A stretch of 64,000 nt of DNA, taken from the NCBI GenBank assembly GCA_016946835.1, contig JACVTC010000008.1, positions 1,930,001-1,994,000 on the forward strand. The letters run 5' to 3'. Origin of the DNA: Neocallimastix lanati (nom. inval.). Its lineage: Eukaryota; Neocallimastigomycota; Neocallimastigomycetes; Neocallimastigales; Neocallimastigaceae. Within the stretch, counting starts at the first letter, position 1, and each line of letters begins with the position of its first letter. Shown in pieces: positions 36,967 to 60,350 of the stretch. The translations under genes were made by a program, and so were the position numbers. The notes beneath the pieces are model-generated. The model searched no databases, had not been told where the DNA came from, and saw only the letters and a list, made by a program, of their open reading frames with translations.

Positions 36967-37566
36967 TGTAACGAATCTTAAAAAATTAGAAATTAGAATG
37001 CTGGCATAGTGGTTAGTCACTATGACCTCAGCCTGAACCACTAGGGTTCGACTCACACCTTTACTAAAATTTTATATCATTTAAATTTTAAAGAATTTTT
37101 ATACTTCATTTCTGTATTTGTTTCTGTATTTGTTTCTGTATAAATTTCTGAAAAAATTAACAAAAGAAATTCTTAGAAATTAATAGAAACAAATCAGATA
37201 GAAATTCTATTTTAATTTATCTTTTATCATTATTTCTTTTAGATTCTTTTTAACCGAAAATAATCAATTTTTACGAAACTTTTTAATGATTTTATGGTTT
37301 TAAATTTTTATGGATTTAAATTTTGAAAAACTATAAATAGGAGTGAATTTCGCAGCCAAAAGATTCTAAAAATTGTGTTTTTATTAATTATTAAATTAAT
37401 TAATAAGTAATTCGAAATATTACAATAATTAATCTTTATAATTAATATTTTTAAATTTCTTAATTAATAAAACTATATTTTAAAAAACCAAATTACTTAT
37501 TAATCAAAAAGTGCTTACCTATTGTGTTACACTCTTTAAAACACGGATATTCCAATATTCGTTACA
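36967..37566 (+). repeat. Solo LTR of family T, with tRNA-like module
   Basis: It starts TGTAACGAATCTT and ends AATATTCGTTACA, 600 bp, with TSD ATTAT (36962-36966 and 37567-37571). It is homologous to the Ty3-T LTR but well diverged. A tRNA-like stretch begins 34 nt inside the LTR, and CTATAAATAG (about 37331) serves as TATA box further down. It is inserted in the Ty3-2 leader. Confidence 0.85.
37001..37060 (+). promoter_or_regulatory. tRNA-like Pol III A/B-box module (solo T LTR)
   Basis: The A box TGGCATAGTGGTTAG (37002) and B box GGTTCGACTCA (37045) lie 43 nt apart, the spacing found in tRNA genes. I cannot fold a full cloverleaf with a paired acceptor stem, so it is tRNA-derived rather than a functional tRNA. 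Confidence 0.75.
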
Positions 37567-39664: not shown

Positions 39665-40224
39665 ATAATTAGTAAATTAGTAACTACGGTTCAATTGTAA
39701 GTTACCATAACCATCGGGTTGAACCCTTAGGGTTCGACACCCACTCTTTCCAAATTTTAATAACTTTTTATTTATTATAACTAGAATATTAAAGAAATTA
39801 CTAGTGTTTATCGGTTAAACAATTGAACCGATAAAACTAGAAAAATCTATTTTATTAATATTTTTTATCATTTTTTATCTAAGATTCATTTTCTAGAAAG
39901 AAAACTTGTTTTCTTTAATTTTCTTTAATTTTCTTTTATTTCTAATAATTACTAATAACAACTGATAACTTAAAATAATTAATTTTCCTGAAAAACTATA
40001 AATAGGTGTAAAATTTCATAATAAAATATTTTTACTTGTGCTTTTATTAATTACTTTTAAAGTAATTTAAAATATTACAATGATTAATTAATAAAATAAT
40101 AATTTATATTTTTACTAATAAAAAAACTTATTTTAATAAAACATATTTTGAATTACTTTAGTGTCGAGAACCTTTTGTGTAAAAAACCTTATAACAATCT
40201 TAAGTAACATTAAGATTTGTTACA
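39665..40224 (+). repeat. 5' LTR of Ty3-T, distal part
   Basis: It continues the 15-nt LTR start at 27270-27284 after the insertion chain. It begins ATAATTAGTAAATTAG and ends GATTTGTTACA. It matches 51548-52120 with a few substitutions. The tRNA-like module is at 39681-39746 (A box CGGTTCAATTG at 39687, B box GGTTCGACACC at 39731, 44 nt apart), the TATA box at 39997-40004, and the inferred transcript start near 40038. Confidence 0.87.
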
Positions 40225-41033
40225 ATAAAAGCACCCTTTGACAAAAAACACGAAACCTTCTCGAGACAAATCTACTCTTTTGGAATCTACTCTTTTAAGA
40301 ATCTACTTTTTTGGAATCTACTTTTTTGGAATCTACTTTTTTGGAATCTACTCTTTTGGAATCTACTCTTTTAAAACTTTAAGCAACTCTTGGGCTACCG
40401 CTAATAATTATATTATCACCAAAACAATATTTTTTCTGTGGAATACTTCCTTAAAAAATTCTATTCTTGAATCTAGTATCTTTTGGATTATTTCTTTTTA
40501 TAGGTTATCTACCTTTCTTTTGCATTCCTTCTTTACTCAAATTCTTGCCCAATTTTTCCTTAGATTCTTCGCTTACTCTTTATTATAAACATACTTTCAA
40601 ATTAAATTCTATCTACCTTTGGATTCCTCTTTGAAACTCTACCTATACCTTTTGGATTTTAATAAAAAAAAAAAAAATTTTATTATTAAATGAATATATA
40701 ACCCTAACCCTATATTCTATAATATATTTAGGTGAATGAATATATAGTATCTTAGATAAATATTATAATAAAATTAATTGAACTAATATACTATTTATTA
40801 GATAAATTTATAGTAAAATTAATTGAACAAATATACGATTTACTAGATAAATTTTATAGTAAAATTAATTGAACAAATATACTATTTATTAGATAAATTC
40901 TGAAAGAAAATTAAGTGGACATATACATAATTTTAGATAAAATTTAACTATAATCTAAGTGAAAGAATATAATATATTTTAAGATAAATTAATACTTAAA
41001 ACTAAATACATATATTAATAATTAGCTAAATAA

Positions 41034-41760: not shown

Positions 41761-44627
41761 ATGGAAGAAGATACCTTTTTAAATGCCAGTGCTACCAATA
41801 AAGATGGATTCGCTGGAGATCGTCGTTACTTGATCCCGAACGATTTAATAATGACCCAATAAAGGTTGTGTATATCATTTCTAGACTCTACGGCTCTGCA
41901 ATGAACTGGGCTGCTACTTTAATTGAAAATAACGATCCATGTTTAAATAACTATCAACAATTCACCTCAAGATTTAAAGATACTTTTGGGAGCTACGATT
42001 CGACTTTCATTGCTAACCAGAAATTGAAGACAATTAAACAAAGACGCATCGGTGAAATAACAAACTATATTCTCGAATTCAATAGATATTCTGACGAATC
42101 TTCATGGAATGAAGAAGCTAAAATGGATGCTTTCCTCAATGGACTTAATGACCAAATTGCTACCAAAATATATGAAATGTTTCCAGGACCAAGATCTCTT
42201 TTCGCATTACAAACTATTGCCTCTAGACTAGATAGTCGTATTCGTATTGCTGCGCATAGACAATTTTCTAATCCACAAAACAGATCAAATAATAATAATA
42301 ATAATGATAACAGAAATAATAACAGAAACAATAATAATAGAAGACAAAATAAAGGGGAAAAGCCTTTCAAATTCAATACCCGAGGTCCTTTGTCTAATGA
42401 AGAAAAGGAAAGAAGAAGAAAAGAACATCTTTGTGCCTATTGTGGATCAGCTAACCATTCCCTTGACCATTGCCCACTAGTAAACAGAAATAAAGCCTCT
42501 TCAAGCAGTTCTCATATCACTAATCTTGAACCTAAAACCATTCCAAGAATAAGAATTTCTGATCAACCCGATGTAAAGCTACCAATTTTTGAATTCTCTC
42601 TTAATGTTTCCAATATTTCTACAAAAACTAAAATTCTTCTGGACTGCGGCTCTCAACTTAATTTAATGGATGTATACTTCGCAAAAGAAAACAATATTCC
42701 TTACTCTAGTGAATGTAATCTCCCTAATGTATCTGGAATCGGCGGTATTCAGTCAATCATAGGTAAAACTGCACCAATATCCTTAAAATATAAAAACCAC
42801 ATATGTAAAACAAGTTTCTATGTTGTTGACCTTCCTTCGTATTGTGCTATTTTAGGCATTGACTGGCTAGAAACTCATAATCCCACTATAGACTTTGCCT
42901 CAAAAGAACTCTCTTTCAAATCCAACTATTGTATTTCCAATTGTCTTGTACTTCCCAGCGCCTTCACTACTTATGTTCCTTTAAATACTATTAAAAAGAA
43001 TGATAAAGAAGAAGAAGATAAAGAAAGTAATAAAGTAAATAAATCATTACCAAAGAAATTACTTCCATTTAAGGATATTTTTAGCGAAATATATGCGAAT
43101 GCACTTTCTCCAAGACCTGATTATACATCAAATGAAGAAGAACTGTCCTCTGACATTCCTTTCAACGTCTTAAAACCTGAAAATTTTTGCGCTACCACTT
43201 CCATTGCCTCTTTAAATGATCAAATACTCCATGAATATAAGAATGATAAATATTATAATGAAATCTGCAAAAAACTCAACTCTAAACAAGACTTCCCAGA
43301 ATCTAATAAATTTTCTTTAAGTAACAACTTCTTACTCTTTGATGGAAAAATTTATGTTCCCCTTAACTGTCGTTCTTCCGTATTAAATATCTGTCATGAC
43401 TCCCCATCTGCTGGTCATTTTGGTTTCAAGAAAACTTTCTCCTTAATCAATCATGACTTTTGGTGGTCATCTATGCAAAAAGATATTAAAGACTATATTA
43501 AATCTTGTGAAATCTGTTGTCGTTCAAAGGATTCTAGACACAAACCTTATGGATTTCTGAACCCCCTAGAAATTCCTGACCGACCTTGGACTTCGCTTTC
43601 CATGGATTTCATCACTGATCTCCCTTCATCTAATGGATATACTTGTATTTTTGTTGTTCTCGATAGATTCACAAAAATGGGTCACTTCATCCCATTTCCT
43701 AACGTTCCTTCTTCTGAAGATACTGCTAAGGCATTCATGACTCATATTTTCAGACTTCATGGATTACCAAATGAAATTCTTTCCGATAGAGGTACTCAAT
43801 TCACTTCTAAATTCTGGACTTCTATTTGCAAAACTCTCAATATCTCAATGAAACTTTCTTCTCCCTTTCACCATCAAACTAACGGTTTAACGGAGAGGGT
43901 GAACTCCGTTGTAGAACAATTTCTCAGATGTTACTCTAATTTTAAAGGTTCAAATTGGCATAATTATCTATTCCTTGCTGAATTCTGCTACAACAATTCT
44001 ATTCAAGAATCATTAAATAAATCACCTTTCTACGCAAATTATGGTTACAACCTTCGCTTCTCACCAGCTGTGCCAAGTTCTATTGATGTTCCGGGTGCTG
44101 AAGAATTTACAACAAACTTAGCGAAACTTTTCAAACAATTAAAAGAAAATTTAAAACAAGCAAGAAATAAACAAGAAAAATTCGCCAACCAACACAGAAT
44201 TAAAGCACCTGAATTCAAAGTAAACGACAAAGTTTGGATAAACAGTTCACTCATATTAAGAAATAAAAATAAAAAATTAAAACCAAGAAAGTTAGGACCT
44301 TATAAAATAATTGAAAAAGTCTCTCCAGTAACATACAAAATTGATTTTCCAAAAAATATAAGAATACACCCAATTATTCATGTATCAGAACTTGAGCCAT
44401 ACTATAAAGACAATTTTAAAAGAAAAAAGGAACCTCCACCTCCAATTATAGTTAATGATGAAGAAGAATATGATGTAGAAGAAATACTTGATAAAAGAAA
44501 ACATTATGGAAAGATTCAATATCTTATTAAGTGGAAAGGATATCCTTTATCTGAAGCATCTTGGGAACCGGAAGAAAACCTCAACTGTCCAGAAATACTC
44601 AAAAAATTTTATAAATCAAACAAATAA
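41761..44627 (+). pseudogene. Ty3-T gag-protease-integrase-chromodomain polyprotein, RT and RNase H missing
   Basis: The probable ATG is at 41761 (MEEDTFLNAS); a frameshift with a short deletion near 41830 moves to the main frame, which is open from 41832 to 44627 (919 aa counted from a GTG at 41868). Domains in the main frame: capsid (start to about 130), CCHC knuckle [14 protein letters not shown] (near 190-203), protease with LLDCGSQLN (Asp-Cys-Gly) and ILGIDWL, then a short linker. Integrase follows directly: HHCC finger (HDSPSAGH...CEICC), D-x59-D-x35-E (SMDFI, SDRG, TERVN), and a C-terminal chromodomain ([26 protein letters not shown]). Compared with Ty3-1, about 430 residues covering exactly RT and RNase H are absent, yet the frame stays open. 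It could at best be mobilised by RT in trans. Confidence 0.85.
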
Positions 44628-44936: not shown

Positions 44937-45863
44937 TGTAAAATATTTAATAATTTGAATACGTATTTAAATGTAATGTAATGTAAATTATTGTGGATAA
45001 AAATGTTTTCCAAATTTTTAATATAAATTTAAATGTATTCCAAATTATTAATTTAATTAATTTTCTCAAAAATGTATGACTAAATTATTTGGAGAATTTA
45101 CATCATTATTACTCACTTTGAATCATGAAACTTGTAAATTAAAAATAATTAGTCATGAAACTTGTAAATTAAAAATAATTAGTCATAAATTAGTTAAATT
45201 AAAGTAATCAAAGAAAAATTGCCTTTTCCGTTTGTTTACAAAAACTTGCCGTTTTGTTTATTTGTTTTTAGAAATATTAGATAGTTTTAAATAGTTTTTA
45301 TATTAAAATAACTCATAAAAATTCATGTAATTTATTATTAAATGTAATTACAAATATATAATAATATTTTAGTTAGTTTATTACAATCTATTCAATTTAA
45401 ATTTTAATTTTCAAAAAGTATAAAAAGAGTTAATTTTCAACTATTGAACGATAGTTGGAAAATAGTATAGAAAATAGTATAGTTTAGAATAGTATAGTTT
45501 AGTATAGATAATATAGATAGTATAAATTTTATATTTTATTAATTAGTATTATAACTATTATTAGAATAGTTATCTTTTATAAAACAAATTTTATTTTAAA
45601 TTTTATTTTAAAATCTTAACTGCTAGTAGGCTTTCCGGTAAAGGACCCTACGGTACCCAGTTAAGTGATTGTTGATTTTAGAATAGTTAAATTCAACAAA
45701 TAAGAAATATTAATAAAAGGATTTTTTTATAAAACAAAAAATTAAATTAGTTTTTTAGTTTTAGTGTTTTAGTTAATAATTAATTATAGTGTTGATATAA
45801 TAAAATAGTGTAAAATAAATTATAGTCTGTCCTCGCCGACCTAAGCTATTATTTTATTTTACA
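44937..45863 (+). repeat. 5' LTR of Ty3-3
   Basis: It is 927 bp, TGTAAAATATTTAAT to TTATTTTACA. The TATA box is TATAAAAAG at 45419 and the inferred transcript start is 45453. A direct repeat (AGTCATGAAACTTGTAAATT region, near 45125-45180) and a stable hairpin (45615-45665) lie within. Confidence 0.95.
45615..45665 (+). other. Stable hairpin in the R-U5 part of the Ty3-3 LTR
   Basis: CTTAACTG pairs with CAGTTAAG around an inner GTAGG / CCTAC helix with CTTTCCGGTAAAGG as loop. It is GC-rich in an AT-rich LTR and repeated at 51297-51347. In self-priming elements U5 structure helps primer cleavage; such a role here is inference. Confidence 0.65.
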
Positions 45864-45874
45864 ATTTTCCAACT
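45864..45874 (+). promoter_or_regulatory. Primer-binding site of Ty3-3, complementary to its own mRNA 5' end
   Basis: ATTTTCCAACT abuts the 5' LTR. Its complement AGTTGGAAAAT is at 45453-45463, 34 nt after the start of the TATA box. Complementarity is exactly 11 nt and ends at the LTR border. Confidence 0.82.
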
Positions 45875-46016
45875 CGTTAGATTAGTATAGTTTACCTTTG
45901 TGTAGGATAGACTAGTAATAGTATAAAAATTTTTTTTTTTTTGAAATAATAATTAAAAAGTGGATTTAGTAATACTTTATAGTTTAATTTATAGTTTAAT
46001 AAATAATAATAATAAG

Positions 46017-49000
46017 ATGAATTACATAAATATCAACAATCAACATCCAGGAGCTAGGGGAGACTTTGACGCAGCCTCTGAAGCCAGCTCCATGGAAATA
46101 GAAAATGAGGTTGGTAATAACGTCAATACCAGGGCACGCCTCATTCCGAAACCAAAAGCATTCTCCGGAAGAAGAAACGAACTACCAGCCTTCCTTGGTC
46201 AAATCAACCGATATTTTAAGTACAATTTAGACGAAGAAGCTGCTGCTGATGACGAATTCAAGATTGATATTATAAGTAGTTATTTGGAGGGAAACGCTGC
46301 TGAATGGTTTGCTGATCTAGTTAAAGAAGAAAGTCCACTATTGGAAAATTACGAGAATTTTATTGACGCTTTGCAACAACGTTACAAATCCTGTGCAAGT
46401 TCAGATGTCGCGAACAGTCGACTTACCAAGATACGTAGCCAACAATTTAGAACAATAGCCGAATACTGCAATCAGTTCGAGAAAATAGCCAGAGATTCAT
46501 CATTTAATGACGAAGCTAAAATCCATTTTTTCATTGAGGGTTTACCAACAAGAGAAAAAGAAAGAACCAAACTAATTTATCCTAGAATTAGAAGAATTAA
46601 TGAACTAATTAATGTTGTAGCTGCTAATGCTGAAGAAGATCGTCGTGTTAACGGAAATGACCCAATGGATATAGATCAAAGAAGAATTAGACCTTTTCGT
46701 AGGGATTTAGGATCAAGTCGTTACCAAAATAATTACCGAAGTAGCCAAAATTACAGGGATTCTTCACCAAAGAGGTCAACCAAACCGAAGAAGTGTTTTA
46801 TATGTAAGAGCACAAGCAACTTAAAGGAAAACTGTCCCAAGCAACAGGACAAAATTAGAAAAAGAGAAAAGATCTTACAGATTAAATTGAGCAAGAAAAG
46901 TTTAGCTCACACTTACAATGTTGTTTTTAAGTACAAAAATGGTTTTATTATGTCCGCAATTCTAGATACTGGCTCAGATCTTAATATTATGGATAGAGCT
47001 ACCGCCGATAAATACCAGATCCCAATACAACGAATCCGCCATGAGAAAAACGTTATCGGATTTAACGGAAATGGAACAATTCGTTATGAAACCATTCCAT
47101 TAACTATGGTCATGGGTCAACATATCGAAACCATTCAATTTTACATTTATAGTTTACCAAAAGGAATTTCGGTTATTTTAGGAAATCCATGGTTGAAGAA
47201 GCATTGCCCAACAATTGAATTTGATAAAGGTAATATCAGATTCAGTTCCCAATACTGCAAGAGGAATTGTTGTGCCACCGCTGAAGATATTATGAGAAGA
47301 ACAACTGAAGAAAAGAAGAAAAAAGATGAAATCCGCCGAAGTAAGATACAATTAGCTAGAGAAATTATTAATAATTATAATAATGTATTAGATAGTTTAG
47401 ATAATAATGATGTTAAAAAATTAGTCGATAATAAAAATAAATTATGTAGTAAAAAATCACGTAATATAAAGGCTATTATGAAAAAAGCCTTAGTTAAAAA
47501 AGAAAAATGTATTAAAAGAAAAGAATTAAATAAAGGAAAATTTGAAAATTATGCTTTCTGTTATGTTTTAAAAAATGAAAATAAAGATAAAAGTGTTATT
47601 AAATGTGATTATAATAATGAAAGTGTTAAAGAAAATAAAAGTTTGGAAAGAATACCAAAACAATATGAGAAATTTAAAAATGTGTTTGATGAACAAGAGT
47701 GTAACGAATTACCACCACATCGTCCATACGACTGTAAAATTAGATTAAAGGATGATGTTGACTTATTTTATGGTCCTTTATATCCATTAACGGAGGAAGA
47801 ACGTGAAGCTTTAAAAGAATATATCAAAGAAAATTTAGAAAAAGGCTTCATTAGACCTTCAACATCTCCTGCTGGTGCTCCAATTTTATTCGTTAGAAAA
47901 AAGGATGGAAGTTTAAGACTTTGTGTCGATTATCGAAGACTTAATGAAAATACTATAAGGGACTCCTATCCACTCCCTTTAATCACCGAGCTTTTTGACA
48001 GATTGAGAGAAGCTAAGTATTTTACTAAGTTAGATTTAAAATCAGCTTATAACCTGGTAAGAATACGTGAAGGTGATGAATATAAAACAGCATTTCGAAC
48101 AAGATATGGTCATTTCGAATATCTTGTTATGCCATTTGGTTTGAAGAATGCTCCAGCAACTTTCCAACACTTTATTAATGACGTTTTAGGAGAATACTTA
48201 GATGAATTTGCTTTTGCCTATATCGATGATATACTTATTTATTCTGAGACATTAGAAGAACACCGTACACATGTTAAGAAAATACTTAAGAAATTACAAG
48301 AAAGTGGTCTTTATGCAAAATTAAGTAAGTGTGAATTTGAAGTCCAGAAAACAACATTCTTGGGGCACGTAATATCCAATCAAGGAATTTCCATGGATCC
48401 GGATAAAGTTAAGTCTATCTTAGAATGGCCAATACCAACTACAGTCAAAGAAGTACAATCATTTATAGGTTTATGCAACTACTACCGAAGATTCATCCCA
48501 AACTTTGCTAAAATTGCTAAGCCGTTACACAACTTAACAAGAAAAGATATTAAATATGAATGGACTGAAGAATGCTCCGTTGCATTCGAAACTTTGAAGA
48601 AACTTTTTACCATAGAACCTATTCTTGCCCATGCAGATCCAGAATTACCGTTTATAGTAGAGACAGATGCAAGTAATTTTGCAATTGGTGCCGTATTATC
48701 TCAAAGAAATAAGGATACAAATGAGTTACATCCAATTTGTTATTATTCAAGAGGTTTAACAAAATCTGAAAAGAATTATCCAATATATGACAAGGAATTA
48801 TTAGCTGTCAAGTGTGCGTTACAAGAATGGAGACATTACTTAGAAGGGGCTAAGCATCAATTTACAATTTATACCGATCATAAAAATTTAACTTTTCCAC
48901 GTAAACCTGAGTTGTTATCTCAACGTCAAATAAGATGGAACTTATTCTTATCTCGATTTGATTACAAAATACAATATAGACCAGGAAAAGAAGGTGGAAA

Positions 49001-50585
49001 ACCAGATGCTTTTTCGAGAAGACCAGATTATGAAAATCAAGAAATAGATGATGAAAAAGAAACTTCAGCTTGTCTTACAATACAAGAAGCTACAGAAGAT
49101 TTATGTTTAGTTGCAATTCAAGGGAACTTAAAAGATGAATTGATAAAAGAAATTAAAGATGATGAAGTCATACAAGAATTAATCAAGATCAAAAAAGGAG
49201 AATCTACTTCTAATAATAAATATAAAAATAAAATGAAAGACTTTACTATTGACGAAGAAGGTTTATTATTATATAAGGGTTTAATTTTCGTTCCAAAGAA
49301 GATGAGAAATATTATCATTGCTATTCATCATGATAATCCAGTTCAAGGTCATTTTGGTATTCTCAAAACCAAAGAAATTATAAGTAGAAATTTTGTTTGG
49401 TTTAAGATGACTTCCGATATTGTTAAGTATATCGCATCATGCAAAACATGTGCTCAAGTAAAAGATGATCGCCACCGTCCTTATGGATTACTTCAACCTC
49501 TTCCCACTCCAAAAAGACCATGGTCCTCAGTCTCAATGGATTTTATAACTGATTTACCTAAGTCAAGAGACAAAACAGTTATAATGGTCGTAGTTGATAG
49601 ATTAACAAAGATGGCTCACTTTATTCCATTTAGGAGTATACCTACCACTCAAATCGCTGCTGATGTATTTTTTAGAGAAGTTTTTCGTTTACACGGATTA
49701 CCAGAAGATATTACTTCCGATAGAGGATCTCAATTCACCTCCGAATTCTGGCAAAGACTTTGTAGTTTATTAGATATTCGTCAAAATTTGTCAACAGCAC
49801 ATCACCCTCAAACAGATGGTCAAACTGAACGAGTTAATGGTATATTAGAACAATTTTTAAGGTGCTATATTAACAAAAGAAAAAATAACTGGATGGACAT
49901 TCTTCCTTATGCTGAATTCGCATATAATAACACATTACAACAATCGACTAATCAGACACCATTCTTCTCAAATTATGGTTTTAATCCAAAATTCAATCCA
50001 GTTATACCTGCTGATAGCAGAAGAACAAGTACCATTGACCATGTTGAACAAATAAGAAAAAACATGCAATTCCTCAAGAAAAATTTAGAAAAAGCTAAGG
50101 AAAGATATAAGAGATATGCAGATCACTTAAGAATTGTAGGACCAAAATTAAAAGTAGGTGATAAAGTTTGGTTAAAGCGTCCAGACTTACTTCCAAAAGG
50201 TCCTTCTAAATTGACTAACAGAAAACTCGGTCCTTTTAAAATTATTGAAAAAACAGGCCCTGTTTCTTATAAATTAGAATTGCCTGATACTATTAAATGT
50301 CATAATGTTTTCCATATTTCAAACCTAGAACCTTACAATGAAAGAGAATTTGATGAATCAAGTACAAGTACTATTACTCGAATTACTTCGATCGCTACTG
50401 ATACTGAAGGAAAGGAACCTTTGAAGATTGTTGCCGCTAAAGTTGTTAACAATAAACCTTTTTACTTTATGTTATGGAAAGGACTTCCAGCTACTGAATG
50501 TACTTGGTTGTCTGAAGATGAAATCACTGATCCTCAATTAGTTCAAGAGTTCAATAAAACAAATAGAGTTCCTTCTAGATTATAA
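46017..50585 (+). CDS. gag-pol: Ty3-3 gag-pol polyprotein (1,522 aa)
   Basis: I choose ATG 46017 (MNYININNQ); the frame is open 19 codons further up but from a GTG only. Domains: capsid (about 40-210), a zinc-knuckle-like CFICKSTSNLKENC near 260-275 whose histidine position is Asn, protease LDTGSDLNI (Asp317), RT with YIDD at 735-738, RNase H ([12 protein letters not shown]), integrase HHCC (HHDNPVQGH...CKTC) and catalytic Asp1175, Asp1235 and Glu1271 (D-x59-D-x35-E). The end is a chromodomain-like segment (FYFMLWKGLPATECTWLSED). The frame is uninterrupted. It is closest in this window to Ty3-1. The altered knuckle is odd for an otherwise intact element. Confidence 0.95.
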   Translation: MNYININNQHPGARGDFDAASEASSMEIENEVGNNVNTRARLIPKPKAFSGRRNELPAFLGQINRYFKYNLDEEAAADDEFKIDIISSYLEGNAAEWFADLVKEESPLLENYENFIDALQQRYKSCASSDVANSRLTKIRSQQFRTIAEYCNQFEKIARDSSFNDEAKIHFFIEGLPTREKERTKLIYPRIRRINELINVVAANAEEDRRVNGNDPMDIDQRRIRPFRRDLGSSRYQNNYRSSQNYRDSSPKRSTKPKKCFICKSTSNLKENCPKQQDKIRKREKILQIKLSKKSLAHTYNVVFKYKNGFIMSAILDTGSDLNIMDRATADKYQIPIQRIRHEKNVIGFNGNGTIRYETIPLTMVMGQHIETIQFYIYSLPKGISVILGNPWLKKHCPTIEFDKGNIRFSSQYCKRNCCATAEDIMRRTTEEKKKKDEIRRSKIQLAREIINNYNNVLDSLDNNDVKKLVDNKNKLCSKKSRNIKAIMKKALVKKEKCIKRKELNKGKFENYAFCYVLKNENKDKSVIKCDYNNESVKENKSLERIPKQYEKFKNVFDEQECNELPPHRPYDCKIRLKDDVDLFYGPLYPLTEEEREALKEYIKENLEKGFIRPSTSPAGAPILFVRKKDGSLRLCVDYRRLNENTIRDSYPLPLITELFDRLREAKYFTKLDLKSAYNLVRIREGDEYKTAFRTRYGHFEYLVMPFGLKNAPATFQHFINDVLGEYLDEFAFAYIDDILIYSETLEEHRTHVKKILKKLQESGLYAKLSKCEFEVQKTTFLGHVISNQGISMDPDKVKSILEWPIPTTVKEVQSFIGLCNYYRRFIPNFAKIAKPLHNLTRKDIKYEWTEECSVAFETLKKLFTIEPILAHADPELPFIVETDASNFAIGAVLSQRNKDTNELHPICYYSRGLTKSEKNYPIYDKELLAVKCALQEWRHYLEGAKHQFTIYTDHKNLTFPRKPELLSQRQIRWNLFLSRFDYKIQYRPGKEGGKPDAFSRRPDYENQEIDDEKETSACLTIQEATEDLCLVAIQGNLKDELIKEIKDDEVIQELIKIKKGESTSNNKYKNKMKDFTIDEEGLLLYKGLIFVPKKMRNIIIAIHHDNPVQGHFGILKTKEIISRNFVWFKMTSDIVKYIASCKTCAQVKDDRHRPYGLLQPLPTPKRPWSSVSMDFITDLPKSRDKTVIMVVVDRLTKMAHFIPFRSIPTTQIAADVFFREVFRLHGLPEDITSDRGSQFTSEFWQRLCSLLDIRQNLSTAHHPQTDGQTERVNGILEQFLRCYINKRKNNWMDILPYAEFAYNNTLQQSTNQTPFFSNYGFNPKFNPVIPADSRRTSTIDHVEQIRKNMQFLKKNLEKAKERYKRYADHLRIVGPKLKVGDKVWLKRPDLLPKGPSKLTNRKLGPFKIIEKTGPVSYKLELPDTIKCHNVFHISNLEPYNEREFDESSTSTITRITSIATDTEGKEPLKIVAAKVVNNKPFYFMLWKGLPATECTWLSEDEITDPQLVQEFNKTNRVPSRL

Positions 50586-50618
50586 GTCGCTCAGGGGCTC
50601 GACTTAAACAGAGGGGCA

Positions 50619-51545
50619 TGTAAAATATTTAATAATTTGAATACGTATTTAAATGTAATGTAATGTAAATTATTGTGGATAAAAATGTTTTCCAAATTTT
50701 TAATATAAATTTAAATGTATTCCAAATTATTAATTTAATTAATTTTCTCAAAAATGTATGACTAAATTATTTGGAGAATTTACATCATTATTACTCACTT
50801 TGAATCATGAAACTTGTAAATTAAAAATAATTAGTCATGAAACTTGTAAATTAAAAATAATTAGTCATAAATTAGTTAAATTAAAGTAATCAAAGAAAAA
50901 TTGCCTTTTCCGTTTGTTTACAAAAACTTGCCGTTTTGTTTATTTGTTTTTAGAAATATTAGATAGTTTTAAATAGTTTTTATATTAAAATAACTCATAA
51001 AAATTCATGTAATTTATTATTAAATGTAATTACAAATATATAATAATATTTTAGTTAGTTTATTACAATCTATTCAATTTAAATTTTAATTTTCAAAAAG
51101 TATAAAAAGAGTTAATTTTCAACTATTGAACGATAGTTGGAAAATAGTATAGAAAATAGTATAGTTTAGAATAGTATAGTTTAGTATAGATAATATAGAT
51201 AGTATAAATTTTATATTTTATTAATTAGTATTATAACTATTATTAGAATAGTTATCTTTTATAAAACAAATTTTATTTTAAATTTTATTTTAAAATCTTA
51301 ACTGCTAGTAGGCTTTCCGGTAAAGGACCCTACGGTACCCAGTTAAGTGATTGTTGATTTTAGAATAGTTAAATTCAACAAATAAGAAATATTAATAAAA
51401 GGATTTTTTTATAAAACAAAAAATTAAATTAGTTTTTTAGTTTTAGTGTTTTAGTTAATAATTAATTATAGTGTTGATATAATAAAATAGTGTAAAATAA
51501 ATTATAGTCTGTCCTCGCCGACCTAAGCTATTATTTTATTTTACA
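50619..51545 (+). repeat. 3' LTR of Ty3-3
   Basis: It is 927 bp, equal in length to the 5' LTR and matching it at every point checked. The hairpin recurs at 51297-51347. Confidence 0.95.
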
Positions 51546-51547
51546 CA

Positions 51548-52120
51548 TGTAACGAAACTCATAACTAGTAAATTAGTAACTATGGTTCAATGGTAAGTTA
51601 CCATAACCATCGGGCTGAACCCTTAGGGTTCGACACCCACTCTTTCCAAATTTTAATAACTTTTTATTTATTATAACTAGAATATTAAAGAAATTACTAG
51701 TGTTTATCGGTTAAACAATTGAACCGATAAAACTAGAAAAATCTATTTTATTAATATTTTTTATCATTTTTTATCTAAGATTCATTTTCTAGAAAGAAAA
51801 CTTGTTTTCTTTAATTTTCTTTAATTTTCTTTTATTTCTAATAATTACTAATAACAACTGATAACTTAAAATAATTAATTTTCCTGAAAAACTATAAATA
51901 GGTGTAAAATTTCATAATAAAATATTTTTACTTGTGCTTTTATTAATTAATTTTAAAGTAATTTAAAATATTACAATGATTAATTAATAAAATAATAATT
52001 TATATTTTTACTAATAAAAAAACTTATTTTAATAAAACATATTTTGAATTACTTTAGTGTCGAGAACCTTTTGTGTAAAAAACCTTATAACAATCTTAAG
52101 TAACATTAAGATTTGTTACA
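51548..52120 (+). repeat. 3' LTR of Ty3-T with tRNA-like module
   Basis: It is 573 bp, TGTAACGAAACTCAT to ATTTGTTACA. The A box TGGTTCAATGGTAAG (51583) and B box GGTTCGACACC (51627) are 44 nt apart. CTATAAATAG (about 51893) is the Pol II TATA box. The first bases are shared with the Ty3-3 TSD. Confidence 0.9.
51577..51640 (+). promoter_or_regulatory. tRNA-like Pol III A/B-box module (Ty3-T 3' LTR)
   Basis: It has tRNA-gene spacing between the A and B boxes, in the sense orientation of the element, in the U3 part of the LTR. A T run (AAATTTTAAT) about 20 nt after the B box could terminate a short Pol III transcript. Confidence 0.72.
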
Positions 52121-52957: not shown

Positions 52958-53793
52958 TTAAATTTTAATAACTTCTAAATTTAGTGAAATTGTTATTTTT
53001 TCGCCTAGACTATTTTTGTTTACACTTTTATCAATTTCATTTCCTGGATTATCGTAATTAACATTTAAAATATTATTATATTGATTAATTATTTTCATAT
53101 ATTTTTGATGATTTTCATAATAAGTATTATCAAAATTCACAATTTGTAAATATTCTTTAATAATTTTCTGGATGTTATTGTTCTTTTTGTCGATTTCATT
53201 CAAACATTTCAATAATTTGTTCAATTTACAATTTGTTTTGTTTATTTTATCTTGAAATGATTCAATTATATATTTATCTATCGTAACAGGATTTTCATTT
53301 TCATTATTTTGGTAATTATTCGAAATATTATTTTTATTCATATTTGCTATTTCATTATTATGTATATTATTATTTATACTTGCTATTTCATTATTATGTA
53401 TATTATTATTTATACTTGCTATTTCATTATTATGTATATTATTATTTATACTTGCTATTTCATTATTATGTATATTATTATTTATACTTGCTATTTCATT
53501 ATTATGTATATTATTATTTATACTTGCTATTTCATTATTATGTATATTATTATTTATACTTGCTATTTCATTATTATGTATATTATTATTTATACTTGCT
53601 ATTTCATTATTATGTATATTATTATTTATACTTGCTATTTCATTATTGCGTATGTTACTATTCATACCTAAATTCTTATAGTTATTGTTATTATATTCAT
53701 TGCTATCATAAATACCATTAATAAAATAATTATTTAAATCATAATTAATATTATTTTCTTTTTGAAAAATATTTGTGTTTTCTGTTTTATTCG
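52958..53793 (-). pseudogene. Asn-rich repeat protein fragment, probably copia-derived
   Basis: The minus-strand frame is open from the LTR at 53799 to a stop at 52958; an internal ATG at 53665 gives 235 aa. It contains about eight perfect 12-residue repeats (EIASINNNIHNN, 36-bp unit, 53340-53650), followed by a charged, possibly coiled-coil tail (NKTNCKLNKLLKCLNEIDKK). The upstream part, across solo LTR S3, is copia Gag. I infer that it is the variable linker after Gag of a decayed copia element. No function is recognised. Confidence 0.5.
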
Positions 53794-53798
53794 GTGTG

Positions 53799-54550
53799 TG
53801 TAAAGATTTAATAAAATTTTTAATAATTAATTATTACATAATTAATTAATATAATAAAATTACATAAATTTATGATTTATGTATATGGAAATTAATTATA
53901 AATTTATGTAAACTTTTCATAAAGGAAAAATTATTATTTAAATAATTTTAGATAATAAATTTAATTTAAATAATTTATTTAAGTTAGTTGATTTAGTTTA
54001 GTTTATTTAAAATAGTTATTCTATTTAACTTAGTTAATTTAGTTTAGTTAGTTTAAAATACTTTAAAATTAATTTCGGAATAGTTTTAAATAGTTAAAAT
54101 TAGTTTAAATAGTTTTAAATTGTAAATATATAAACATTAGTATTAATAATATTTATATAATAAATAGATAATAAATGAGCTCTTATTGAATTTGATTATT
54201 ATTAGAAATAAATTGAAAGTTTATTGAATTAATTATTGTATCGTTTTATTTAATTTTTATTTAACAAAATTACTGAAAATTATTTTGTTTATAAATAAAT
54301 AGTAATATATGTAAATTAGATAGAAATAATATATTATAATATAATCATAAAAAATTATAAATACATGTAAATTTCTATAATTAAATCGATGTATTAGTTA
54401 TTGACTATCAAATAATTAATAACAATAAGAGATTTATTTTTAAAATTAATAAAAGATTATTTAATAAAAAAAAAAGAATTTTTTATTACGTGTTTTAAAC
54501 TGTTTTGTGTATTTTGTTATTTGTAATCTGTTTCTTCTAAACTCTTTACA
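53799..54550 (-). repeat. Solo LTR S3
   Basis: Plus-strand ends are TGTAAAGATTTAATA and TAAACTCTTTACA, 752 bp, with TSD GTGTG (53794-53798 and 54551-54555). It is a distant relative of H1/H2 and of the Ty3-1 LTR (shared AACAGATTA... start and TAAATCTTTACA end). Confidence 0.82.
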
Positions 54551-59042: not shown

Positions 59043-59581
59043 TGTAACGTGCTTCTATTGTAACGGCGGGACGTGGTATAGAAACACAGAAAGGAGAAAA
59101 CTCAATAGGTTTACACTATCTGTATAAATAATTCGTTTTATTAAAAAAGATTTTTTATTAATTATAAAATTTAAAGTAATTATTAATATTAATCAACAAG
59201 GTAATATTTCGAATTACTTATACGTTAATTATTATTAATAAAAGCACGAAGAAAAATATTTTCATTCGTGAAGTTCGCACTATTTATACTTTTAACGGAA
59301 AAACAGTTTTAACATGTAAAAATAATTTTAAAGAAATATTTAGAAATATGTTTGTAATAATTAATAATGTAAAGTTTCTAGAATATAGATTTTAATTGAT
59401 GAAAATGAATCTTATCGAAAAAAGAATAAAATAATTTATATAATAAGAATTTCTAAATTCATTTCGGTTGAATTACGAACCGAAGTATTCTTTAACTTTC
59501 TATAATTTATACAGAAAGAATATTCAAGAAGATATTATTAATAATTAATAAAATAATTATTTATGCAAAATGGGTTGAGGT

Positions 59582-59636
59582 GCGAGTCAAACCCATGAAG
59601 TATTGGTCATGGTCAATGTAACTAACCATTGAACCA
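59582..59636 (-). promoter_or_regulatory. tRNA-like Pol III A/B-box module (inverted T LTR)
   Basis: On the minus strand the A box is TGGTTCAATGGTTAG (59636-59622) and the B box GGTTTGACTCG starts at 59593, 43 nt later. A short ATTG / CAAT stem surrounds ACCATGAC at the anticodon-arm position. Confidence 0.7.
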
Positions 59637-59662
59637 AAGTTCTAATTTTACTAACTTGGTAA

Positions 59663-60350
59663 TGTAATAATTCTATTAAGAACTAACTCAAAATAGAATT
59701 ATTAACTACAACTTAACGACTAATTCATTAAGTTGAGAAAATAAAATAAAATAAATTTTTTTACCTTTAGAGTAGAGTTTATTATAAAATTAATTATAAT
59801 AATAACACAAAAATGAAAATAAGGTTAAATAAGAAAGGGTTTTCTAATCTTAACAAATCTCTTATCTAGGAAAAGATTAAATAGAAAAACCTAGATAAGT
59901 TTTCGATCGATATTCTATCCATATCGATCATCGCATTAATTAAGTAAAACCGATTACTTCTAAAAAGTAATTGGAAAAAATCTTAATTAACCGATTTTCC
60001 AATCTAATCTAATGATCGAAAATAAAAGAATAAAATAATAAAAGATATTTCGATCATATAATTTATCCTTATATTAAAAATATAAAATTAAATAGTTAAT
60101 AAAATACAGAATACATTATAAAATACAGAATAAAATACAATACAAAATACATTAGTTACAGTAGAGAATTTAACATATTGTAAATATATTATTTAAAATT
60201 AATTAAATAAATTTTGTTAAATTAATGAATATTTAAAATTAAATTAAATAAATTTAATAAATATTATATGTAATTAAATAAAGTTATAGTTATAATAACT
60301 TAACTAAGAAAATATAATTATTTGTTAGCAAATAATTATAGATTCTTACA
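59663..60350 (-). repeat. Solo LTR G2 (family B, inverted, internally deleted)
   Basis: The ends are as in G1 (TGTAATAATTC / ATTCTTACA), with TSD GGTAA (59658-59662 and 60351-60355). About 175 bp covering the TATA box and the 29-nt palindrome are missing near 59812. Confidence 0.85.

Follow-up and report, generated by a model that had tools for sequence, protein, structure and literature searches.

The LTRs of the T retroelements of Neocallimastix lanati carry what we take, with a probability of roughly 0.83, to be a used tRNA-type (type 2) Pol III promoter whose A and B boxes are recognised in the same way as those of tRNA genes. The evidence comes from a stretch of 64,000 nucleotides of contig JACVTC010000008.1 (hereafter the window) and from searches of the 199 Mb assembly (762 contigs), and the steps backed by computation are the boxes, their spacing, a nearby T-run, conservation between LTR families and recognition of the module by several families of other retroelements. 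The suggestion of the earlier note that this module in a Ty3-like LTR works as a Pol III-type promoter gains its main support from the last of these, since insertions lie at a fixed distance upstream of the module just as they do at tRNA genes.

Four LTRs in the window contain the module. T1 is a solo LTR (36967..37566, forward strand) with the 5-bp flanking repeat ATTAT, seen by eye; T2 (39665..40224, forward, 5' bound approximate) and T3 (51548..52120, forward) are the 5' and 3' LTRs of one element and, being so, are not independent (98.9% identity over 565 bp); T4 (59067..59661, reverse, bounds approximate) is broken at its 5' end. The first ~15 nt of the LTR are missing from T2 and T4 because another element adjoins the module there. 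The four copies had been described as members of one family, a view that has to be corrected to three families (T1, T2/T3 and T4), and a fourth module family, T5, known from two copies, was found outside the window beside elements of another family, U. In T1 the A box TGGCATAGTGG occupies positions 37002-37012 (forward) and is followed at 43 nt by the B box GGTTCGACTC (37045-37054, forward). The T2 module (39687-39740, forward) combines a weakened A box CGGTTCAATTG (39687-39697), which differs from that of T3 at two positions, with the B box GGTTCGACAC (39731-39740) at a spacing of 44 nt, and T3 has the A box TGGTTCAATGG (51583-51593, forward) and, 44 nt away, the same B box GGTTCGACAC (51627-51636, forward) with the first TTTT 14 nt beyond it. 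In T4 (module 59584-59636, reverse) the A box TGGTTCAATGG (59636-59626) and the B box GGTTTGACTC (59593-59584) are 43 nt apart. The measured spacings of 43, 44, 44 and 43 nt are thus those first proposed for these LTRs. LTR position 36 is the first base of the A box in each of T1, T3 and T4, and all modules are located upstream of TATAAATA, a TATA box kept in T1, T3, T4 and T5, which agrees with the placement of the module about 30 nt inside the LTR and ahead of the TATA box.

This architecture matches that of the tRNA genes of the host. The two boxes are 43-44 nt apart in five LTRs and 43-46 nt apart in 14 of the 15 host tRNA genes examined, the B box of the 15th (locus L088) being unmatched. 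A TTTT follows the B box by 13-23 nt in all five LTRs and by 12-36 nt in 13 of the 14 host tRNA genes with a matched B box, which is weak evidence in such an AT-rich genome (window GC 9-31% per 4 kb). To the boxes at tRNA-like spacing and the downstream T-run, the footprint described below adds, indirectly, the third feature of a type 2 promoter, namely the placement of TFIIIB upstream, read as the target of Pol III-directed integration. The idea that the boxes resemble promoter elements by chance draws on the looseness of the A-box motif, which is general knowledge, and we give it almost no credence: the B-box motif GGTTCGANNC is present three times in the window against 0.12 expected from shuffled sequences (the fourth window module has GGTTTGA in its place), the spacing is fixed in four families, and chance offers no account of the footprints. 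A real tRNA gene in the LTR was rejected as well. ARAGORN predicted 0 tRNA genes in the window and Rfam matched none of its tRNA families there at E up to 10, so that tRNA models recognise no cloverleaf in the window; nor did Rfam match a 5S family at E up to 10, which separates these LTRs from Cassandra with its 5S promoter. Of a tRNA gene, only the promoter boxes remain in the T LTRs.

The elements that bear these LTRs are protein-coding. The T2/T3 element contains a 941-aa ORF (41802..44627, forward) with gag, integrase, SH3_Tf2-1 and chromodomain matches and a weak aspartyl protease match below the Pfam cut-off. Gag, integrase and C-terminal chromodomain (in the window copy only) and a 5-bp target-site duplication place it among the Ty3/Metaviridae chromoviruses. 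No reverse transcriptase or RNase H match was found in this ORF. Both are present in the close homologues P0001-P0011, while P0012 (995 aa, 63% identical over 99%) and P0022 (868 aa) also lack reverse transcriptase, and the form without it may be a recurrent, mobilised type. Another close homologue, P0020, is labelled Orpsp1_1, which we take to stand for Orpinomyces. No relatives of the module or of the T ORF were found in the viral contigs. T LTRs start with TGTAACG and end with GTTACA, are preceded on the 3' side of the element by a purine-rich tract ending in GGACCA and are followed on the 5' side by ATAAAA(A/G)CACC. Duplications of 5 bp were seen by eye at seven T pairs, including GCTAT (L007/L008), ATTAT (L012/L013), GTTAT (L021/L026) and GTGAA (L067/L068), and LTR-to-LTR spacings in the genome match lists are about 4.5-6.7 kb; the first-look candidate numbers in the genome searches were 707, 868 and 1372, which are not confirmed copies. 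Close by in the window, a tandem repeat of 36-bp units (53221-53760) lies inside an ORF on the reverse strand (52958-53830).

The primer-binding site ATAAAAGCAC (40225..40234, forward) comprises 10 nt complementary to the presumed RNA start (R) within the LTR. In T1, T3 and T4 alike, the first 10 nt of this site are the exact complement of the presumed start of R, and where T1 departs from T3 and T4 it does so at corresponding positions of the two stretches. Judged by this pairing, T elements are self-primed in the manner of Tf1. The TATA box kept in all four families makes it very likely that Pol II transcribes their genomic RNA from a start beyond the module. That the tRNA-like stretch serves as a primer for reverse transcription is disfavoured, as the primer-binding site pairs with the R start of the LTR itself. 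Some T4 LTRs (for example L063:2090-2129) display a second terminal motif, with TTTACA or GTTACA followed by a stretch resembling the primer-binding site, ATAGAAGCACC, and then GTTACA, as if a primer-binding site and a new LTR end had been gained once via aberrant reverse transcription.

The strongest support for recognition of the module comes from the elements that have inserted next to it. Sequence ahead of the A box was read in 30 T4 loci, many of which lack the canonical LTR start, and the pieces that replace it look like the ends of other LTR elements, U (969 bp), V (872 bp LTR) and others, in both orientations. These loci had been picked by whole-LTR matches, so a new sample was drawn for T4 and T1 with the final ~250 nt of the LTR as the only query, and the best 40 matches each to this 3' part were read, the best-scoring copies being the youngest. 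Nineteen of the 40 T4 LTRs are interrupted at LTR position ~12-19 and 21 are intact to position 1, with no interruption at positions 20-389 among the 40. In T1, interruptions at position ~9-15 affect 11 of 40 LTRs and 6 + 23 copies are intact, none of the 40 being interrupted at positions 16-356. Just upstream of the A box, therefore, 30 of the 80 LTRs are interrupted, and 25 of these 30 junctions are distinct by our own count, L134/135/164, L133/162 and L172-174 being apparent duplicates; small contigs may be haplotype copies. Most upstream pieces end LTR-like in CA, which L176 lacks at the expected place; element types at these junctions were set by short end motifs, so that "U-type" includes relatives of U. 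Random placement of all events over the stretches read has p ~1e-30 for T4 and ~1e-19 for T1, values that include the duplicates and are indicative only. As a control, the 927-bp LTR of a further family, N, in which no B-box match was found in the scan, was sampled via its middle (40 matches, 20 fetched): none of the 19 copies readable there is interrupted at positions 11-20, and one of 20 is interrupted near position 200 (L194). The comparison of 30/80 with 0/20 gives p = 0.0006 (Fisher; 0/20 was entered, 19 copies being readable at the position).

The window itself holds examples of these events. T2 is interrupted by an unclassified element end, and an N element (44937..51545, forward; LTRs 44937-45863 and 50619-51545, ORF 45957-50585 with reverse transcriptase) is nested in the T3 element, with the 5-bp repeat CATGT on either side (by eye) and its right end 37 nt upstream of the T3 A box. 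Next to T4, a U-related LTR (59663..60350, reverse; outer bound provisional), which matches the U of L049 at 72-75% along two stretches, ends 26 nt upstream of the A box. Elsewhere, two U matches sit in T4 LTRs (L042 and L049), and at the first of them (L042/L126) T4 sequence and the 5-bp repeat CTTCA are found on both sides of U. Some LTR copies begin ~20 nt ahead of the A box, and these were at first considered to be retrotransposed Pol III transcripts, similar to SINEs. This was rejected because the upstream pieces look like U/V LTR-element ends in both orientations, because several copies run on into the primer-binding site and because the U inserts at L042 and L049 have 5-bp duplications.

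The families that interrupt T LTRs are also found at tRNA genes. Among 27 U insertions tallied with 125 nt of flank a side, eight lie beside a predicted tRNA gene (three for Trp, of which two are near-identical, and one each for Glu, Arg, Ala, Met and Thr), two have a T5 module and 17 have neither; in this last group L077 has an uncalled tRNA-like A/B pair (by eye), many adjoin the start of another LTR and a few look ordinary. The U insertions beyond the tally (L127-L131; two with both flanks, one half-read) have no predicted tRNA. For V, sampled as ten elements picked as LTR pairs out of 40 matches, six lie within 125 nt of a tRNA gene (two for Glu and one each for Trp, Pro, Val and Thr), three, including two duplicates, show by eye an A/B-like pair that is unclassified, and one has none. 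The ten N places read, several of them picked for a visible T LTR start and thus not a fair sample, comprise two upstream of tRNA genes (L228, L238), six at T LTR starts (three of these duplicates), one within a tRNA-Ser gene (L236) and one at neither (L237), where no Pol III gene was present in the flank read beside N. As background, one tRNA gene was predicted in 244 kb of T-family loci, and no predicted tRNA gene lies within 150 nt of any of 14 intact T 5' LTRs.

The distances kept at the two kinds of target are the same. U-type ends lie 21-25 nt from the A box at tRNA genes (n=8) and 21-26 nt at LTR modules (n=11); V-type ends, 21-22 nt (n=6) and 20-26 nt (n=13 junction types), respectively; and N ends, 35 and 37 nt at tRNA genes and 36, 37 and 38 nt at LTRs, all with a tolerance of ±1, the first base called by ARAGORN being off by one in some tRNAs. 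Constant distances specific to each family are the expected behaviour of a protein complex positioned by A/B boxes. It could be argued that the cluster of insertions results from a preference of the invaders for local DNA sequence or for LTR ends rather than from Pol III factors, as the sites are AT-rich and near LTR ends. We consider this very improbable, because the T4, T1 and T5 sites and the regions upstream of tRNA genes differ in sequence and share the distance to the A box, and the module-free N LTR is not struck at its 5' end. Moreover, U/V-type and N distances differ from one another, each being equal at tRNA genes and LTRs, and a cause in the site sequence is hard to hold when two integration systems keep their own distances at both kinds of target. 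Since the same retroelements insert upstream of LTR modules and of tRNA genes at equal distances, TFIIIC and TFIIIB very probably assemble, or have assembled, on T LTRs in vivo, and on this analysis the cell very likely treats these LTRs as tRNA-type genes. The footprints are a record of past TFIIIB-like recognition, which is distinct from transcription.

Several further observations were made around these insertions. At least three other LTR families, U (L049), V (L053) and N (window 44937-51545), sit at Pol III genes at family-specific distances, and the ends of still more LTRs often adjoin them in what resembles nested stacks. At L236, N lies at the 3' end of a tRNA-Ser-like B box and not upstream of it, and a V-type end immediately precedes this gene. 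At L208, L211 and L224, A/B-like boxes were seen by eye ~21 nt away from V ends, in unclassified sequence that perhaps belongs to another module-bearing family. One contig has a long series of tRNA-Arg(TCT)-like genes, partly at ~540-bp spacing (L069; G000:C555 ~330000), of which the 63 best matches were scored and three sequences were read as tRNA-Arg; first-look tRNA candidates in the genome number 9278, unscored.

The earlier note held that the boxes persist despite divergence elsewhere in the LTR, and this stands between families and in part within them. An alignment of T1, T3, T4 and T5 has a mean pairwise column identity of 0.50, so that about half of the positions differ. Among the best non-overlapping 12-nt windows the TATA box leads with 0.94, followed by the R start and two other blocks at 0.92 and, in fifth place, by the B box at 0.88; a value of 0.75 is reached by the window GTGGTTAGTCAC, whose start falls in the A box. 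The proposed comparison of substitution rates in the boxes and the rest of the LTR, made on a non-random sample of 64 T4 and 46 T1 copies, came out in favour of both T1 boxes (A box 0/506, B box 1/460, rest 77/12260) and of the T4 A box (1/704), which are nearly invariant, but not of the T4 B box, which is not conserved above background within its family (15/640, with 208/19186 in the rest).

Two other readings bear on this conservation. The conserved stretch might act as RNA, as part of the 3' U3 of the genomic RNA, forming hairpins for packaging or reverse transcription. Predicted folds of the module RNA have z-scores of -2.8 (T4), -1.5 (T1), -2.3 (T3) and -1.3 (T5) and contain hairpins rather than a cloverleaf; nevertheless, these scores are modest, the hairpin registers differ by eye and the insertion footprints are left unexplained, so we assign this role a low probability. 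The module might instead be a relic with inertia, in which an ancestral LTR acquired a SINE or a piece of a tRNA and young copies still bind TFIIIC with no gain to T, the conservation reflecting youth and common descent. Such an origin by SINE insertion into an LTR is proposed by Kojima for elements of this kind (PMC10886601), the best 40 matches per query are indeed young (93-100% identity), and the T4 B box varies within its family. On the other side, in four families that differ at about half of the positions the B box ranks with the best-conserved blocks, as does the A box to a lesser degree, and this holds although insertions at the module break 19/40 and 11/40 LTRs at places upstream of the TATA box. 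We regard the relic as unlikely, if a serious contender, and prefer a promoter that is in use.

If the module is used, several related Ty3/chromovirus LTRs would contain a type 2 Pol III promoter ~35 nt inside U3, the rest of the tRNA being absent. By analogy with the Ty3 and Dictyostelium literature, TFIIIC would bind the A and B boxes and place TFIIIB ~20-40 bp upstream, as at a tRNA gene; Pol III would then make an RNA of ~80-110 nt, stopping at the first T-run. The genomic RNA would come from the separate Pol II TATA promoter further downstream and be self-primed, and the module would form a second transcription hub within the LTR. Most likely, the module would be kept because assembled TFIIIC/TFIIIB holds the LTR open or insulated, with the side effect that the LTR becomes a landing site for other retroelements.

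Ty3 is stated to interact with TFIIIB and to integrate upstream of tRNA genes, and Ty3 of yeast and Tj1 of S. japonicus, both LTR elements with insertion sites immediately ahead of Pol III genes, are the models for U, V and N; however, the targets named for them are host Pol III genes (PMC4600332), whereas U, V and N also use the LTR of another element. Self-priming is stated for Tf1, Tf2 and Tj1 (PMC4600332). Tj1 thus shares its mode of priming with T, but a predicted tRNA gene within 150 nt is missing at 14/14 intact T 5' LTRs. In Dictyostelium, A/B boxes without a tRNA on the rDNA have been inferred to be sites of Pol III complexes from insertions of TRE5-A (PMC5391098). The logic is that of the T footprint, although TRE5-A is a non-LTR element that inserts ~47 bp upstream and the target there is an extrachromosomal rDNA element, not a dispersed LTR (PMC5391098).

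As a precedent for the promoter, Cassandra had been named. It does share a Pol III promoter in the LTR with T, but the promoter is of 5S type in a non-coding element of 565-860 bp, and Helenus/TRIMp3, with a tRNA-like A/B-box sequence in LTRs and fungi among its hosts, is the closer tRNA-type precedent (Kojima 2024, PMC10886601). Helenus and T have in common the tRNA-like A/B sequence in the LTR and, in fungi, 5-bp target duplications; they differ in that Helenus elements are non-coding TRIMs of 311-1263 bp with tRNA-derived priming (PMC10886601), while T has LTRs spaced ~4.5-6.7 kb apart and, in the window copy, gag, integrase and chromodomain, is apparently self-primed and has a Pol II TATA box. 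In the same study, Helenus and Ajax are short non-coding elements whose LTRs have Pol III-type promoter sequences, the Helenus Pol III promoter is expected to make the template RNA, its function is stated to need experimental validation, and the weak processivity of Pol III is argued to make autonomous counterparts use Pol II promoters (PMC10886601). Recognition of the T module is backed by independent insertions, whereas the function of the Helenus promoter is described as unvalidated (PMC10886601). Judging from their sequence, T elements unite the two kinds of promoter within a single LTR and are themselves coding, which sets them apart from Helenus and Ajax. We know of no tRNA-type target footprint at foamy-virus LTRs. 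These LTRs are reported to have Pol III microRNA genes and provide a case of Pol III-directed, LTR-encoded small RNAs from a protein-coding retroelement, in vertebrate retroviruses (PMC7693620, PMC7104284). No report of such a dual-promoter coding LTR was found among the best matches, by title and start of abstract, in the open-licence PMC literature.

Pol III promoters in LTRs are known from short non-coding elements, where the tRNA-type case was recognised by its similarity in sequence. T, by contrast, is a coding element of full size with a Pol III-type module beside its Pol II promoter, and independent insertions act as a natural footprint of its recognition, which offers a route from sequence to Pol III promoters that tRNA finders miss. 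A wider reading, which we hold tentatively and at somewhat less than even odds, is that hundreds, perhaps thousands, of dispersed Pol II-driven LTRs of coding elements are tRNA-type Pol III hubs under selection and landing sites at the same time. The element itself would use the hub for open chromatin, as a boundary or for a short regulatory RNA, and the set of LTRs would amount to genome-wide artificial "tRNA genes", making one mobile element the habitat of others. Why an element keeps a module that draws invaders into its own LTR becomes a testable question, and the finding points to an ecological link among retroelements, in which the target sites of some families are supplied by another.
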